This document shows, in pieces, positions 11,762-27,175 of a stretch of DNA of 29,956 nucleotides. The stretch's first letter is position 1; the number at the start of each line of letters is the position of its first letter. Below the pieces are notes generated by a model. It did not search any database and was not told the DNA's origin. It worked only from the letters and a program-made list of their open reading frames with translations. Both the position numbers and the translations under genes were made by a program. Source of the stretch: a virus; IMG/VR virus record IMGVR_UViG_3300049847_000174, positions 1 to 29,956 of that record; one strand, 5' to 3'.

Positions 11762-12585
11762 GCGTCACGCACCTGGACAAGCCACGCGTCACGGTCAGGA
11801 ACCACCGACACGATGCGCCGCTCACCCTGGGTCAGGGTGACCTTGCCACCCACGTGAGGAGTGACCAAAGCAGTAGGCACCAGGAGGGATATATCCCCCA
11901 CCTGAGGCTTTGCAGACATGGCGTCGACAGCCCTATACAAGCGGGTGCTGGGAGCGTACAGTGCAGGGACACTGGGTGATGCACCACTATAGGTGTCATT
12001 GATCGGGTCGTAAGTCGTGCCTGCAAAACTCACCGTCTGAACGCCGACCAGCTCTTGGCACTCCAGCACGGCAAGTCCCTCCAGCGGAAGGTGGTAATTG
12101 AAGACCCGCAGATACAGGGCCCCGATCTGAATGACCGTGCCAACTGCGGCCGTCTCTGCCGGGGCCATGTAGACGTTCCACACGACAGTCGAATCACTGC
12201 CGTTTAGGGGGTCCTTCTGCTCGTTGAAGTACTCCAGCTGAGCATAGGCAGTGGCCGAGGTGACACCTTGGGCCATGGCTCCCGGGTTACTGTAACCCGC
12301 CAGGGACATCGCCTTTTTCATATTGTAGGACTGACGAATCGCATCCTCTTCCCAGGCGTCCGAGTTGCCATCACCAACAATCCAGTAGCTCTCAAGGATC
12401 TTGATGGCCCGGCGGGCCGGCAGACTCAGGCCGGTACCAATGGACAGGATTCGACGGGTAGACGTAGAGCCAACCACGTTCGCGTCATTGAAGCTTGAGA
12501 ACTGGGCCTTGAACAGGTACGCCCCGGTATACGCATCGTAGACCGAGGTGGTGTCAAAGAACACAGCAGCGTCTTCAAGGCGCAT
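11758..12585 (-). CDS. Head-tail connector / head completion protein, unrecognised family
   Basis: This encodes 275 residues with the ATG 2 nt after the preceding stop. The N-terminal half is mixed (VVGSTSTRRILSIGTGLSLP and a helical KILESYWIVGDGNSDAW region). The C-terminal part, about residues 200-275, is beta-rich (VGGKVTLTQGERRIVSVVPD) and looks like a head-closure or stopper barrel. Position between the connector-like 166-aa gene and the gp10-like gene supports a neck role. The gene carries one copy of the GGGTTAC/GTAACCC palindrome (12283-12299), encoding part of AGYSNPGA. I do not recognise a named family. Confidence 0.5.
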   Translation of the reverse strand: MRLEDAAVFFDTTSVYDAYTGAYLFKAQFSSFNDANVVGSTSTRRILSIGTGLSLPARRAIKILESYWIVGDGNSDAWEEDAIRQSYNMKKAMSLAGYSNPGAMAQGVTSATAYAQLEYFNEQKDPLNGSDSTVVWNVYMAPAETAAVGTVIQIGALYLRVFNYHLPLEGLAVLECQELVGVQTVSFAGTTYDPINDTYSGASPSVPALYAPSTRLYRAVDAMSAKPQVGDISLLVPTALVTPHVGGKVTLTQGERRIVSVVPDRDAWLVQVRDA

Positions 12586-18500: not shown

Positions 18501-20150
18501 TCAATGTTTGACCTTGAAGGTGGTCGGCACCAGCATATTCATCATGTTAACCACTGGTGAACATGGGAGCTTTGTGCCCAGGTACAGGTAGGCAAGGGCA
18601 TGGTGGTAGTGATCATTGCCCACCTCCGATTTCTTCCACACATACACCGTTTCACCCAGGTTGTTGATTTCCGGGGCTTTCTTCATATCCTGAAGCTGCT
18701 CGGTGAAAATGGGCGTTTCATCATCCCGCGCAATCTTGATACGACGAGCCTTGAACAGTGCAAGGATCTCGTCAAATACCATGTTGCGATTAACCTTCAG
18801 CGCTCGAAGCGTATCCGGTTCATCCTCCTCTTTACCGCCGAAGGTGTACAGGTCCTGCTGTTGGCCGCGCACGTAAACCGAGCAGTAAGCATCAGGGTCT
18901 TCTGCCTGCATACGGAACGCCGTATCTGTATAGGGCAGCATATCCATATTCTTGACAATGCAGCGATACTTGCTGCACAGCTCCTTACGGCGCCGTTCAT
19001 AGTTTTGAAGCGGGATGCGCTCCTTGTGTACTACAAGCAGATCATTTCCAACCATGCGACCAATGACAGCATTACAGGTCAGTCCCATGTCTGACGCAAA
19101 GACGTTGTAGCCGCCGTCCAGCTGGTCAGTTGTATAGGCAGCCTCCAGGTCATCCTGCGTGATGGTGTCAGAGGCTTCCTCAGCAGTAAGGCCCAAGTTC
19201 TGGTTCTTGAACTCAGAGTACCGGCGGTACTTGACCGATTTCTCCAGCAGCTGCTGTATGCTGATCAGGTTGGGCGCATCAAAGGGAGAGATATAGAATC
19301 CCTCCGCAGAGAATCGGGCAGCAGGATTCTCCGCTACCCATTCCCGGTTCTTCGGTGACAGGTCAGCGCGGGTGCCGCAGCGAGGGCAGGCTACATATGC
19401 CCGCATGTAGTGAGTGTTCGGCAGCGTGTACTTGTCCAGTTCCCAAAGCTCCTTGCTCCATCCGGGCAGCACAACGTGCTTAAAGAAGTCAGGATAGTAA
19501 CGCTCATTACACGAGGTGCATTTCGTGAACTGCTTATAGCGCACACTCCGCTGCATACAGGCGTCAATACCTCGACCCGCTACAGTGGGGGTAGAAAAGT
19601 TGCGGCGCAGCTGCCACTTAGAGTGAGTCAGTCGAGATTCATACTGATCAAGTACATCCTGGTTTGATCGGTCAATCTCATCCGAGATAATGCAGTCAGC
19701 AGGGGTCGAAATCGCAGCCGTCTCGGAGTTGGTACCCTTAAAGTATATGGTACCCGTACCCAGCCGTTTGATGGAAGAGTTCCAGAGGTTGCCATCCTTC
19801 AGTCGGGCAAGGCGAGGCGACTGGTCAACCACCAAGTCCACCCGGGTCTTGGCGAAGTTCTCCGCATCCTGACTGAATGGGAAGGTATAGATAATGTTGA
19901 AGTCAGGTATGGTGGCGATAGCGGCCAGTCCCCAGCGAGACTGCGCTTCCGTCATGCCAATCTGCGAGCACTTCTGGGAGTTTACCTCTCGGGCAGCAGA
20001 AGAAATAACCTTGAGCTGAAACTCATGGTCAATAAAGCTATACTGACCACCCTTAATATAAGTGTGGTCAGTAATGAATCCCGGAATAGCGGAGAGGTCG
20101 ACTCGACCCATCAACTGGTATTCGAGTCGTGTATACAGGTCATCAAACAT
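18501..20150 (-). CDS. Terminase large subunit, lambda gpA-like
   Basis: This encodes 549 residues. The ATPase shows a deviant Walker A KCSQIGMTE at residues 60-68, which aligns with the KSARVGYSK form of lambda gpA, where the catalytic Lys is at the front. Walker B is CIISDEID at 153-160. A coupling motif NFSTPT follows at 184-189. A zinc ribbon is formed by C211/C214 and C255/C258, also a gpA-family trait. The nuclease domain shows Asp354 (FASDMG), Asp403 and Asp513 (NDHYHHALAY). The gene overlaps the small-subunit gene by 8 bp. It cleaves and translocates DNA into the prohead. gpA-like enzymes are usually cos-type, so cohesive ends are inferred. Confidence 0.92.
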   Translation of the reverse strand: MFDDLYTRLEYQLMGRVDLSAIPGFITDHTYIKGGQYSFIDHEFQLKVISSAAREVNSQKCSQIGMTEAQSRWGLAAIATIPDFNIIYTFPFSQDAENFAKTRVDLVVDQSPRLARLKDGNLWNSSIKRLGTGTIYFKGTNSETAAISTPADCIISDEIDRSNQDVLDQYESRLTHSKWQLRRNFSTPTVAGRGIDACMQRSVRYKQFTKCTSCNERYYPDFFKHVVLPGWSKELWELDKYTLPNTHYMRAYVACPRCGTRADLSPKNREWVAENPAARFSAEGFYISPFDAPNLISIQQLLEKSVKYRRYSEFKNQNLGLTAEEASDTITQDDLEAAYTTDQLDGGYNVFASDMGLTCNAVIGRMVGNDLLVVHKERIPLQNYERRRKELCSKYRCIVKNMDMLPYTDTAFRMQAEDPDAYCSVYVRGQQQDLYTFGGKEEDEPDTLRALKVNRNMVFDEILALFKARRIKIARDDETPIFTEQLQDMKKAPEINNLGETVYVWKKSEVGNDHYHHALAYLYLGTKLPCSPVVNMMNMLVPTTFKVKH

Positions 20151-22045: not shown

Positions 22046-23122
22046 TTACCTCGTGACGTTGAAATTACGACCAGTGTTTGAAGCAAAAGAGCGAGTTGCC
22101 ACAACTGAGAAGGCCTCTGGATTGTCCGCTGTAAAGGTGCGAACACCATTAACCATATAGCTCCTGGCGTCTGGCACCACCAGGAATTCGGTACTGGGCT
22201 GCAAAGTATCCGTGATCCGGGCAGTCAGTGAACCGCCATAAGCGGTAGACCCTGACCCGGGCAGCATTATCTGCGCCGCCCCTGATGCTGCCAGCTGCCC
22301 CGCCAGGGCCACAGAGGCGCTGCCGGGCAGGGGAGTAGCCGCTGCGCCCGTTGCTACTATCAATCCTACGGCTGCAGTTGACGAGCTGCCTACCAGCGCC
22401 CGGGTCGCTGCGCCTGTAGCCTGCAACGCCCCACCCGAGGCCGTCGAACCTGAGCCCGTTAGAGCGGTAACTGCGACGCCGAGTGCGCTAAGACTGCCGC
22501 TTGTGGCAACGGAATTGCTACCAACCAGGGTACCTGCCGCGATTGAGCCGGCAGTAACGGCGCCCGAAGTAGCGGTAGACCCTGATCCGGTAAGCGCAGT
22601 AATGGCCGCACCGGTAGCGATGACCGTACCACCGGTAGCGCTAGAATTAGAGCTGGCAAGTGCGGTAGACCCTGCACCAGACGCCGATAGAGTGCCACCG
22701 GTAGCGGTAGAGCCTGCCCCAGCAAGTGCGGTAGACCCTGCACCAGACGCCGATAGAGTGCCACCGGTAGCGGTAGACCCTGCCCCAGCAAGTGCGGTAG
22801 ACCCTGCACCAGACGCCGAGAGAGTCCCACCGGTAGCGGTAGAGCCTGCCCCAGCAAGCGCGGTAGACCCTGCACCAGATGCCGAGAGAGTCCCCCCGGT
22901 AGCGGTAGAGCCTGCCCCAGCAAGTGCGGTAGACCCTGCACCAGATGCCGAGAGAGTCCCACCGGTAGCGGTAGAGCCTGCCCCAGCAAGCGCGGTAGAC
23001 CCTGCACCAGATGCCGAGAGAGTCCCCCCGGTAGCGGTAGAGCCTGCCCCAGCAAGTGCGGCAGTGCCCGCAACCCCACCACCTGAGAGCAGGGCTGCAG
23101 CAAGTAGTGGTGAAAAGAACAT
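22046..23122 (-). CDS. Tail fibre-like protein with 22-residue tandem repeats
   Basis: This encodes 358 residues. The start overlaps the preceding stop as TAATG. After a short hydrophobic N-terminus the protein carries six near-identical 22-residue units, each built from ALAGAGSTATGG, TLSASG and AGST, then six or seven more degenerate units of the same GSGSTATGG pattern. The last 60 residues (about 300-358) are different and look globular (EFLVVPDARSYMVNGVRTFT). Gly/Ser/Ala/Thr-rich repeats with 11/22-residue periods would form a beta-solenoid or extended fibre shaft. Location among adhesin genes suggests a tail-fibre shaft with a C-terminal tip. The nucleotide repeat is listed separately. 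Confidence 0.7.
   Translation of the reverse strand: MFFSPLLAAALLSGGGVAGTAALAGAGSTATGGTLSASGAGSTALAGAGSTATGGTLSASGAGSTALAGAGSTATGGTLSASGAGSTALAGAGSTATGGTLSASGAGSTALAGAGSTATGGTLSASGAGSTALAGAGSTATGGTLSASGAGSTALASSNSSATGGTVIATGAAITALTGSGSTATSGAVTAGSIAAGTLVGSNSVATSGSLSALGVAVTALTGSGSTASGGALQATGAATRALVGSSSTAAVGLIVATGAAATPLPGSASVALAGQLAASGAAQIMLPGSGSTAYGGSLTARITDTLQPSTEFLVVPDARSYMVNGVRTFTADNPEAFSVVATRSFASNTGRNFNVTR
22662..23057 (-). repeat. Six 66-bp tandem repeats inside the fibre gene
   Basis: Copies begin at 22662, 22728, 22794, 22860, 22926 and 22992, marked by GCGGTAGACCCTGCACC. Units at 22860 and 22992 share small differences that units at 22926 and 22794 lack, so a 132-bp duplication lies on top of the 66-bp unit. 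The copies are almost identical at synonymous sites, which suggests recent expansion. Confidence 0.92.
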
Positions 23123-24804: not shown

Positions 24805-25266
24805 TCAGCTCACGCGCACCAATGAGGTGGCGTCACCGACTGCCGGGACGTTGATGGTGAATGCTGCGCCCGTGCTTGTGATGGTGCCACCGAAGTCGTA
24901 GACACCAATGACACGGTTTGCTTTGGTACTGTTGTAGATAACGGCACCAACTGCAGAGAGGGTCGCACTGGCAAGTGGTGTGGGCGCCGCGAAGTCCATG
25001 CGAGTGACGCGGCCGTTGACGGTAATGCTTGGAGCTGCCAGGGTCATACCGCCACTGGTGTAGCCTGTACCGCTGGCCTCGTCCGTGCCGAGGTTGGCAG
25101 TAGTGGGGGTACCCGTGCCGGGAGTACCGACATTGGTCGTTGCATGTGAGTACGTTCCCGCATGCCCCGGCTTAATGAGGGCCAACTTGTAGACATCCGT
25201 GGTCAGGTGGATGCCCTGGAAGCATTCGGCAATGAATGACGTGGCGCGGTCGGTGGTGATAGCCAT
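24805..25266 (-). CDS. Structural protein, beta-rich (tail/fibre)
   Basis: This encodes 153 residues with a strong SD (AGGAGAA) before the start. The sequence has a helical start (TSFIAECFQGIHLTTDVYKL) and a Gly/Thr-rich strand region, closing with VYDFGGTITSTGAAFTINVP. The closing segment, in my recollection, is shared with several virion proteins of beta-proteobacterial phages. It is the second gene of the late operon and heads the fibre block. Exact function unknown. Confidence 0.6.
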   Translation of the reverse strand: MAITTDRATSFIAECFQGIHLTTDVYKLALIKPGHAGTYSHATTNVGTPGTGTPTTANLGTDEASGTGYTSGGMTLAAPSITVNGRVTRMDFAAPTPLASATLSAVGAVIYNSTKANRVIGVYDFGGTITSTGAAFTINVPAVGDATSLVRVS

Positions 25267-25293: not shown

Positions 25294-25614
25294 TTAGCGG
25301 GGAAATACCTTCGGCTGGCAAGCGGGGTTGGGAGTGTTGACGTATACGTTGCGCTCCCACCTGTCTTTAGCCGGGTAGTGACCAGACTTAATGGCATCAG
25401 GCAGCCACTGGAGGTTGCTAACGGCATCGCAGCCGCCACAGGCCAGGGGTATGACGTGATCTTTTGCCCACCCAGGGCATGCGCCTTCGGTCTTGCCTGT
25501 GCTGGGGCATGGGTGGATGCGTTGAAATGCCGCTAGAACCTGTGTGGATCTTACGGTGGTCGGCTCGCAGATGCGGGTCTCGATGAAGGCGGACAGTATT
25601 AGTGCGGACAGCAT
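25294..25614 (-). CDS. HNH endonuclease-like protein with hydrophobic N-terminus
   Basis: From the ATG at 25614 this encodes 106 residues; a longer GTG start at 25677 is possible. Neither has a clear SD. The start MLSALILSAFIETRICEPTT looks like a signal peptide or membrane anchor. The core then shows paired Cys and an HNH site: CPGWAKDHVIPLACGG (DH as metal/catalytic His), followed by VSNLQWLPD (Asn motif) and a Lys/Arg-rich end. Small HNH proteins with paired Cys and export-like leaders are common in proteobacterial phages. Its place is first in the late operon, far from terminase. It could act in packaging or on DNA of competitors. Only the motif is certain. Confidence 0.72.
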   Translation of the reverse strand: MLSALILSAFIETRICEPTTVRSTQVLAAFQRIHPCPSTGKTEGACPGWAKDHVIPLACGGCDAVSNLQWLPDAIKSGHYPAKDRWERNVYVNTPNPACQPKVFPR

Positions 25615-25747
25615 GAAAGTTTGAAAATATGTTGCGAAATTTGGGGGGAGGTGAGGCCGGCCTGCCTGCGCCGACACGTGGAAAGTGTACCCGTCCTACG
25701 GTGTGCGCCGTGGTCCCTGCCCACCGGGCTTGCGAGGCCGGCGGCCT

Positions 25748-25799
25748 ACCCTGTCAACCTACCCTGTCAACCTACCCTAACACATAACCCTGTCAACCT
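25748..25799. repeat. 13-bp iterons (ACCCTGTCAACCT)
   Basis: Perfect copies occupy 25748-25760, 25761-25773 and 25787-25799. A degenerate copy (ACCCTAACACATA) fills 25774-25786, so the four units are in phase. The reverse strand of each perfect copy reads AGGTTGACAGGGT, which includes TTGACA. No matching -10 lies at proper distance, so initiator or repressor binding is favoured over promoter function. Confidence 0.8.
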
Positions 25800-25855
25800 G
25801 TCCTGACACTGTCTGCACTGTGCACGACTCGCTTGTTTACAGTATTTTACACCCG

Positions 25856-25871
25856 GGTTTCACGTGAAACA
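25856..25871. promoter_or_regulatory. parS-like centromere site
   Basis: The 14-bp perfect palindrome GTTTCACGTGAAAC (25857-25870) equals the core of the bacterial chromosomal parS site bound by ParB/Spo0J. With the flanks it is GGTTTCACGTGAAACA, differing from the common 16-mer by one outer base. It lies 3 bp before a perfect DnaA box. The sequence match is seen; ParB binding is inferred. An operator for another repressor remains possible. Confidence 0.75.
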
Positions 25872-25873
25872 CC

Positions 25874-25882
25874 TGTGGATAA
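25874..25882 (-). promoter_or_regulatory. DnaA box 1 (perfect TTATCCACA)
   Basis: Plus-strand TGTGGATAA is the complement of the consensus DnaA box. It sits within CTGTGGATAACTCAC, a 15-bp direct repeat shared with the second box 115 bp to the right. Confidence 0.75.
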
Positions 25883-25988
25883 CTCACAAACTGCCATTGT
25901 TTGCACCCATACCCTACTATATCCGCAGTGTTGACCCCCCTTAAACGCCCGATTAGACCCCTTGCCGGGGCATGTATACCTAACCAGC

Positions 25989-25997
25989 TGTGGATAA
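25989..25997 (-). promoter_or_regulatory. DnaA box 2 (perfect TTATCCACA)
   Basis: Second perfect box in the same orientation, again within CTGTGGATAACTCAC. The two flanking regions continue to share short blocks (GCACCC, CCGC), so they seem to be diverged copies of one segment. Host DnaA recruitment is the inferred use. Confidence 0.75.
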
Positions 25998-26036
25998 CTC
26001 ACTCTGCCCCTATTGTCCGCACCCTAAAAATACCGC

Positions 26037-26066
26037 TTGCACTGCCCCGGTTAAACATGCCATAAT
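26037..26066 (+). promoter_or_regulatory. Rightward sigma-70 promoter candidate
   Basis: TTGCAC and CATAAT are 18 bp apart, and TGC directly before the -10 gives an extended -10. It points toward the small plus-strand genes and lies 40 bp after DnaA box 2. Confidence 0.6.
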
Positions 26067-26092
26067 CCAACCATGGGATGAAAGAGGCCCGA

Positions 26093-26111
26093 CGGGTTAC
26101 CCGGTAACCCG
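26093..26111 (+). repeat. GGGTTAC/GTAACCC palindrome, copy 1
   Basis: CGGGTTACC pairs with GGTAACCCG around a single C, between the two rightward promoter candidates. This is the first plus-region copy of the recurrent family. It lies inside a leader rather than directly before a start codon. Confidence 0.75.
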
Positions 26112-26129
26112 GCCCTCCTAAACAAGGGC

Positions 26130-26158
26130 TTGCAATACCGGATGCCTTGTGCCAGAAT
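26130..26158 (+). promoter_or_regulatory. Second rightward promoter candidate
   Basis: TTGCAA and CAGAAT are separated by 17 bp, with TGC before the -10, the same design as the promoter at 26037. Both may drive the plus-strand cluster. The -10 is less perfect. Confidence 0.5.
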
Positions 26159-26231
26159 CAAGGCCTGTTCTTTAAAAACCTGACCTAGCTAGCCGGCTGC
26201 GAAGCCTGCCCTAGACACCCCGCTAAGCGCG

Positions 26232-26268
26232 GGGTTACCAGTAGGCCGCCCCGGCCTACTGTTAACCC
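26232..26268 (+). repeat. GGGTTAC-type palindrome, copy 2 (long)
   Basis: GGGTTACCAGTAGGCCG pairs with CGGCCTACTGTTAACCC around CCC with one mismatch, 17 positions long. It ends 13 nt before the 43-aa ORF. A smaller hairpin (CCCCGC with GCGGGG) lies just before it and shares its first bases. Confidence 0.75.
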
Positions 26269-26281
26269 TACAAAGGCACCC

Positions 26282-26413
26282 ATGCAAAACGCACAAAACC
26301 AAGCCCGCAAGGTTCTCCCCATGAACGGCGGCACCCCAGTATTTAACATGCCCCCCCAAGGGCTGGCACTGGCCCCCAAGGGCCCACAACACCCGCTGGC
26401 GCCCCGCAAGTAG
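26282..26413 (+). CDS. 43-residue small protein, hypothetical
   Basis: The start ATG is preceded by AAAGGCACCC, the same AAAGGCA ribosome-binding leader used by several later genes, and by a long hairpin of the recurrent family. That is the main support. The product begins MQNAQNQARKVLPMNGGTPV and ends HPLAPRK; it is Pro/Gln-rich, basic and low in structure. No homology recognised. It may be a real small early protein or a leader peptide. Confidence 0.5.
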   Translation: MQNAQNQARKVLPMNGGTPVFNMPPQGLALAPKGPQHPLAPRK

Positions 26414-26424
26414 CGTCCTCCCTA

Positions 26425-26446
26425 TGCACCCCCTAGCCGGGGTGCA
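26425..26446 (+). other. Hairpin overlapping the operator-like palindromes
   Basis: TGCACCCC pairs perfectly with GGGGTGCA around CTAGCC. It has no T-run. Its last bases are shared with the first palindrome at 26443, so the two RNA folds exclude each other. Confidence 0.5.
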
Positions 26447-26477
26447 CTGACAGTGCATAACGTGCACTGTCAGTGCA
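26443..26477. promoter_or_regulatory. Tandem 15-bp palindromes, operator-like
   Basis: TGCACTG-A-CAGTGCA (26443-26457) and TGCACTG-T-CAGTGCA (26463-26477) are perfect inverted repeats whose centres are 20 bp apart, about two helical turns. Each is part of an 18-bp direct repeat. They lie 36 bp before the next start codon. Dimeric repressor sites are the simplest reading; RNA hairpins are an alternative. Confidence 0.65.
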
Positions 26478-26512
26478 TATCGCACAAACCCCCTAAACCT
26501 AAGGAACTGATC

Positions 26513-27175
26513 ATGAGCACCAAGCAATTCAAACAAGCCGCTGCAACCCTGTTTGCAAGCATCCTGGCAGCCGAGACCCTGCGCGATGACGTCAAGAATG
26601 CAACCCTGATGGCCGATGCACTGCAAACGGATGCGTTTGCTGAAACCCTGGCCATTGTCAAGGCCTATGTCGAAGAGAACGGCGCCGCTGACAAGGGCGC
26701 CGTTTACAAACTCGCTGAAGACTGCATGAGCGAACTTCAGGCCTTGAGAACGGCAGAGCTAAAGCGTGCCGGCTTGAGCACGAAAGACGCCACGGGCAAG
26801 AAGGACGCAATCTGTAACAGGCTGGCCGTCTACAAAAACCGCATCCTTTCAGGTCTCGAAAAGCGCGGCACGCTAGAACAGCCCACCCCGGAACAACTCA
26901 AGGCCGAGAAAGAAACGGCAAAGACTACAAAAGCCAGCGCTGAAGCCCTGAAATCGGCGCAAGCATCGCAAGGCCTGCGACCCGTCACGGTGTCCGAACT
27001 GCTACAAGCCTTGTCCCTGGCCGTGACGGCTGGCGCGCTGGACCGGGCCGAGTGGGCAGCCGCAAAACATCTTGCCATGCGCATCGATGCGGGCTTTGCG
27101 GCTTTCCATGGCACGCAAGCGCCGATGAACATGGGTGACGTTGTCGAAGTGGTCGGACCCGCGCTCACCCACTAA
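26513..27175 (+). CDS. Hypothetical early protein, 220 aa
   Basis: Start at ATG 26513 with AAGGAA 6 nt before; a frame extension upstream to 26453 crosses the tandem palindromes and is rejected. The protein is helical, Ala/Lys/Glu-rich: FKQAAATLFASILAAETLRD, then AELKRAGLSTKDATGKKDAI, a Lys/Ala linker (TAKTTKASAEALKSAQ) and a C-terminal domain (VSELLQALSLAVTAGALDRA). No enzyme motif. It could be a DNA-binding or host-interaction protein. It follows operator-like sites and may be a regulated early gene. It is followed by two strong hairpins. Confidence 0.8.
   Translation: MSTKQFKQAAATLFASILAAETLRDDVKNATLMADALQTDAFAETLAIVKAYVEENGAADKGAVYKLAEDCMSELQALRTAELKRAGLSTKDATGKKDAICNRLAVYKNRILSGLEKRGTLEQPTPEQLKAEKETAKTTKASAEALKSAQASQGLRPVTVSELLQALSLAVTAGALDRAEWAAAKHLAMRIDAGFAAFHGTQAPMNMGDVVEVVGPALTH

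Follow-up and report, generated by a model that had tools for sequence, protein, structure and literature searches.

The non-coding region between two divergent gene blocks of a phage genome fragment carries an exact match to the core of the bacterial chromosomal centromere site parS, immediately beside the first of two perfect DnaA boxes. Judging from the identity of these motifs and from the comparison with other phage sequences, we consider it fairly probable (about 0.6) that the region mimics, in compact form, the oriC/centromere neighbourhood of bacteria and would recruit both ParB and DnaA of the host. Taken separately, binding of host ParB to the parS site is predicted with good confidence, and binding of host DnaA to the boxes with rather less. 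The DNA analysed is a 29,956-base fragment recorded in IMG/VR (hereafter the window), the rest of the phage genome lying outside it; as relatives are ∼80–93 kb in size, the part outside the window should be about two thirds of the genome.

Organisation of the intergenic region

The left 25.7 kb of the window is taken up by a late operon, a block of leftward genes for head, tail, lysis and packaging, with matches to terminase (phrog_675), portal (phrog_3753) and endolysin (phrog_894) families. The gene for the terminase large subunit (18501–20150, minus strand; phrog_675 match with E = 5.6e-79) served as the anchor for gathering relatives. Elsewhere in the block, the ORF at 22046–23122 encodes a protein built of many near-identical repeats (GAGSTALAGAGSTATGGTLSAS), which has no Pfam match and is perhaps a tail fibre. 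The first ORF of the block, at 25294–25677 on the minus strand, is HNH-endonuclease-like by weak matches (PHROG phrog_6050, E = 0.0012; Pfam HNH_5, E = 0.004, below the cut-off). On the other side, the first rightward gene (26513–27175, plus strand) starts with an ATG at 26513; it gave no family match and no relative in the viral contigs searched, and a search for family matches to the small rightward genes from 26513 onwards likewise gave none. The mechanical ORF list leaves a non-coding gap of ∼830 bp between the two blocks (25678–26512), and this holds all of the sites considered here.

The palindrome GTTTCACGTGAAAC at 25857–25870 is the predicted loading site for host ParB. As the initial annotation had claimed, it is identical to the chromosomal parS core, with 0 mismatches. 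The match is to the 14-bp core and not to the full 16-mer TGTTTCACGTGAAACA, the preceding base being G instead of T. A check for further parS copies, run on the window, returned none even when up to 3 mismatches were allowed. The only two exact copies of the DnaA box TTATCCACA in the window, both on the minus strand, lie 115 bp apart at 25874–25882 and 25989–25997; the first begins 4 bp beyond the palindrome and the second 119 bp beyond it. These had also been described initially, as boxes in identical 15-bp contexts, and indeed the window has exactly two copies of CTGTGGATAACTCAC, at 25873 and 25988. The similarity extends further: the segments at 25866–25917 and 25981–26033 (plus strand), each containing one box, can be aligned over ∼50 bp with small gaps, the 15 bp at the box being identical and the remainder diverged. 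The two segments are thus diverged copies of one direct repeat, of which the box is the invariant part.

Expected counts were taken from a first-order Markov model of the window, which predicts 5.9e-5 occurrences of the parS core, 0.13 exact DnaA boxes and about 1.6e-8 occurrences of a parS core with a box no more than 30 bp away. Because any known motif may be spotted when many windows are considered, recurrence was also sought.

The same gap contains several other repeated elements. Tandem 13-bp repeats with the unit CCTACCCTGTCAA (25745–25809, plus strand; two exact copies and further degenerate ones, at a spacing of exactly 13) adjoin the parS/DnaA-box cluster and have no copy elsewhere in the window. 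It is possible that they are iterons of a phage initiator, or operators. Just upstream of the first rightward gene, a repeat search found two 15-bp palindromes, TGCACTGACAGTGCA and TGCACTGTCAGTGCA, placed 20 bp apart (26443–26477); neither has another occurrence in the window, and they are probably operators of a phage regulator. An inverted repeat at 26232–26268 has 17-bp arms, 94% complementary, with a 3-nt gap between them. Scanning the gap for promoters and terminators gave nothing exceeding chance.

parS sites in other phages and their apparent fit to the host

The 18-mer ATGTTTCACGTGAAACAT was found in 315 of 50,697 isolate phage records, a number that includes redundant entries and fragments and does not represent 315 independent events; the expectation from length alone is ∼0.03, and the control, a parS palindrome in scrambled order, was present in 0 of the same records. 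The hosts of the phages concerned include Listeria, Microbacterium, Arthrobacter, Gordonia, Bacillus, Lactobacillus and Ruegeria. Exact parS is carried by three phages of Bacillus subtilis that are of the phi29 kind, B103, Goe1 and Chedec 11. Among 97 sampled parS cores from viral contigs, some of which may contain host DNA, 60 are extended to the complete 16-mer by a flanking T and A, compared with an expectation of 1 in 16.

The parS of Pseudomonas aeruginosa is TGTTCCACGTGGAACM, and the form TGTTCCACGTGGAACA is bound by ParB in vivo, with no significant binding to sequences that are two mismatches away from parS (PMC5098823). As the canonical and Pseudomonas variants are themselves two mismatches apart, the distinction between them is relevant. 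TGTTCCACGTGGAACA occurs in 58 phage records. Pseudomonas phages account for 17 of these, but for no more than 6 of the 315 records with the canonical form (Fisher p about 1e-10). This enrichment suggests that the parS variant of phages tends to match the host. The fit is one at the level of phage groups, and extends to the canonical form in a Burkholderiales chromosome with a related prophage (see below).

parS beside DnaA boxes in unrelated phage groups

When viral sequences were scanned for a parS no more than 30 bp from a perfect DnaA box, 22 and 10 loci were obtained, from several unrelated groups, at least four of which have phage genes on the contig (the L085, L018/L086, L020 and L083 groups). 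In the first of these, composed of T7-like podophages, parS and boxes separate replication genes, which run leftward, from packaging genes, which run rightward. When this group was gathered by terminase, the density of boxes in the gap was 39 times that elsewhere, with two or more boxes in 16 of the 42 loci having the region and parS in 2 of the 42. The whole box/parS module is missing from one locus (L208), yet its terminase is 97% identical to that of a relative in the group. We therefore rejected the idea that parS and boxes are always conserved together. In the T7-like podophages the DnaA-box cluster is the commoner part, and the parS addition comes and goes.

Three loci were discarded as support, two of them (L016 and L019) looking like chance matches in coding sequence, and the third (L015) having no phage match for the one protein tested. 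In an unbiased sample of 98 viral parS sites, no exact DnaA box was found at a distance of up to 100 bp from any of them. The pairing is thus rare overall and confined to certain groups, and the argument is one of recurrence, not of frequency.

Distribution in the window's own phage family

Close relatives of the window were found neither through the terminase alone nor through the first rightward gene. The nearest relatives by the protein encoded at 24805–25266 have no further gene in common with it among the genes compared. Named distant relatives, mostly 77–88 kb in size, have about 24–36% identity in terminase, capsid and portal. One of these, the Pseudomonas phage Lana, carries the exact Pseudomonas variant TGTTCCACGTGGAACA in a 68-bp gap; phage 2-1 has a parS with one mismatch, and SHOU24 only an asymmetric sequence with two. 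In 8 of the 11 named relatives there is no parS-like site, even at up to 2 mismatches.

Alignment of the terminase gave a broader family sample of 80 viral loci (29–47% identity), gathered irrespective of parS. Of 50 family records obtained in this way, 7 contain GTTYCACGTGRAAC, with 8 sites in ∼2.5 Mb; by our own arithmetic ∼0.04 sites are expected, and the reversed-pattern control gave 1 site. Most of the parS-bearing members have a single site, and 43 of the 50 records have none. The sites lie in short gaps in L452, L454 and L501, and inside genes, away from boxes, in L450 and L515, so the position of parS is not fixed in the family. It follows that parS is sporadic in the family and not universally conserved. 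Strict conservation of the palindrome among relatives, a point raised by the initial annotation, fails on these counts and on the lack of an exact site in most of the named distant relatives.

In one 87 kb family record, L476, the order of the structural genes is as in the window (portal 42%, capsid 40%). About 1 kb upstream of terminase it has two GTTCCACGTGGAAC parS sites, 62 bp apart, and two TTATCCACA boxes, 82 bp apart, in a repeated unit. This is the arrangement of the window, with a different parS variant.

Possible role as a replication origin

The initial annotation had also proposed that the phage recruits host DnaA for replication, and here the support is indirect. Clusters of boxes near terminase are seen in L476, in L480, with three boxes, and in L490, where seven exact boxes within 190 bp (12186–12367) form the most oriC-like cluster that we saw; unrelated podophages have box clusters as well. 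Against this, the window has only its two exact boxes, 115 bp apart. A search for an AT-rich unwinding element found none, the best 40-bp stretch beside the sites being 57.5% AT (62.5% at 25601), and the GC skew of the window makes no sharp turn and gives no usable origin signal. DnaA-driven replication is plausible from the box clusters in relatives, and is less sure than the ParB half of the proposal. That the site in the window itself acts as an origin is a tentative suggestion, to which we give somewhat less than even odds.

ParB genes and a candidate host

A search for the HTH_ParB domain gave no match in the 29,956-base window, in any of the parS-plus-box records examined, or in the parS-bearing family records, including those of 87–93 kb (G436, G448 and G453). 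Two other family records, L523 (G463) and L524 (G456), encode a weak HTH_ParB-type protein, above the cut-off, and have no GTTYCACGTGRAAC site. Given that the parS-bearing phages examined have no detectable ParB, it would be the host's own ParB that is recruited. Recruitment of host ParB was the central proposal of the initial annotation, and it is supported by the comparison as a whole, that is, by the 315 isolate records, the tendency of the variant to fit the host, the strong over-representation of parS in the window's family and the lack of a detected ParB gene in the parS-bearing records.

A Burkholderiales chromosome (G248) contains a syntenic prophage (terminase 36%, portal 41%, tail protein 43%), and a Burkholderiales host for the window phage is plausible by this likeness. 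The chromosome is a single contig with three exact canonical parS copies and four with one mismatch, none of them more than 50 kb from a contig end. Neither parS nor a DnaA box occurs in the prophage itself or in the 80-kb stretch around it.

Proposed mechanism and alternative explanations

ParB loads at parS and then slides over adjacent DNA (PMC12704722). In the mechanism that we propose, the host-type parS would recruit ParB of the host, which would load as a CTP-dependent clamp, slide along the adjoining phage DNA and connect it with ParA and/or SMC of the host, so that the phage DNA may be positioned, compacted or partitioned. The two boxes would bring host DnaA to the same control region, where it could help replication to start, or couple transcription of the divergent blocks to the host cell cycle. 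That partition or positioning of phage DNA is the main benefit is the reading we prefer, tentatively, with a decoy role and control of transcription as its competitors. Equally tentative is the more general idea that phages without parB repeatedly and independently gain a host-matched centromere together with DnaA boxes, as a portable mini oriC/parS cassette. Phage DNA would in this way resemble the origin region of the host, and be organised and replicated by host ParB/SMC and DnaA.

It could be argued that the site acts as a decoy, many phage copies titrating host ParB and disturbing host segregation with no benefit for the positioning of phage DNA. Phage copies would soon outnumber the chromosomal sites (three exact copies in G248), and four or five exact parS cores are found in each of some viral contigs (L102, L114 and L159). 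Such a decoy would leave the adjacent DnaA boxes unexplained, however, and the single site in most parS-bearing family members does not favour it, so we regard it as unlikely. The location of the palindrome between divergent gene blocks, in a gap with other operator-like palindromes and tandem repeats, raises the alternative that it is an operator for a phage or host transcription factor, resembling parS by convergence. It is quite unlikely that this is so, as hundreds of phage records have exact parS, the Pseudomonas form is found preferentially in phages of Pseudomonas, and sites in other phages are not only 5′ of genes, some being beside terminator-like hairpins and some inside genes.

The window covers ∼30 kb of a phage whose relatives reach ∼80–93 kb, and its own ParB, or a full ParABS system, might thus be encoded outside it, as might a phage initiator. 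The palindrome would then serve the phage itself as a centromere, like that of plasmid-like prophages. Partition functions are known from extrachromosomal prophages of mycobacteria (PMC7157519), and two members of the window's family do encode an HTH_ParB-type protein. Yet it is precisely these two that have no GTTYCACGTGRAAC, whereas the parS-bearing records, the three large ones included, have no HTH_ParB; moreover, the parS is of the host-chromosome type and varies with the host. An own ParB is therefore distinctly unlikely. The last alternative is a chance match, or a transferred fragment of a host oriC that has no function. A parS beside a DnaA box is indeed found in many bacterial chromosomes (in Burkholderiales, in 2 of 150 sampled genomes). 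The very low expected frequency of the pair speaks against chance, the surroundings of the motifs are a duplicated repeat, the parS flank differs from that of the listed chromosomal loci, which were the only ones compared, and independent recurrence is seen both within the window's family and among groups of unrelated phages. This explanation is highly improbable.

Relation to known systems

Use of host ParB by a phage is already known. Virulent Bacillus phage phi29 relies on host Spo0J (ParB), with entrapment in the spore, according to the account of Meijer et al. 2005 cited in PMC9437464. To the extent of that account, the likeness lies in a host ParB homologue being used, in the window by proposal only, for placing phage DNA. 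The likely host of the window phage is a proteobacterium, in contrast, and no Spo0A-type control is implied; in addition, Chedec 11 has no DnaA box near its parS, whereas the parS of the window adjoins the boxes. With the chromosomal oriC/parS region, the window shares the same motifs at distances similar to those in many chromosomes, but it has two boxes only, no recognisable unwinding element, and no recognised parAB or dnaA gene. Plasmid-like prophages with ParABS, such as P1 and the cluster A mycobacteriophages (PMC7157519), likewise have a centromere on the phage genome; they encode ParB, whereas the window and its parS-bearing relatives gave no sign of a parB gene. The element SGI1, at least as outlined in PMC10954446, hijacks the parABS system of IncC plasmids, and is thus similar in being a mobile element that uses the partition machinery of another replicon. 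That system belongs to a plasmid, while the window phage would use the ParB of the chromosome.

In the open literature searched, the coverage of which is incomplete, we found neither a survey of host-type or host-matched parS as a common feature of phages nor any description of phage parS sites accompanied by DnaA boxes. The counts suggest that host-type parS is widespread in phages, tends to match the host and extends beyond the phages of spore-formers. With such sites at hand, it becomes directly testable whether phages rely on the machinery of chromosome segregation for placing, folding or keeping their DNA, and the parS variant could give a weak clue to the hosts of uncultured phages. The presence of the same tags in unrelated viruses suggests that host segregation machinery, and perhaps replication machinery, has been borrowed.

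The setting of parS in individual phages is varied. In Gordonia phage Woes (L422, sites at 1082 and 1503), parS is at the centre of longer perfect inverted repeats, which differ between the two sites, and in KPP25 and Chedec 11 it lies directly 3′ of a terminator-like hairpin. Exact parS 18-mers are also present in microviruses of 4–6 kb (H154, H200 and others), among them Spiroplasma phage 4.
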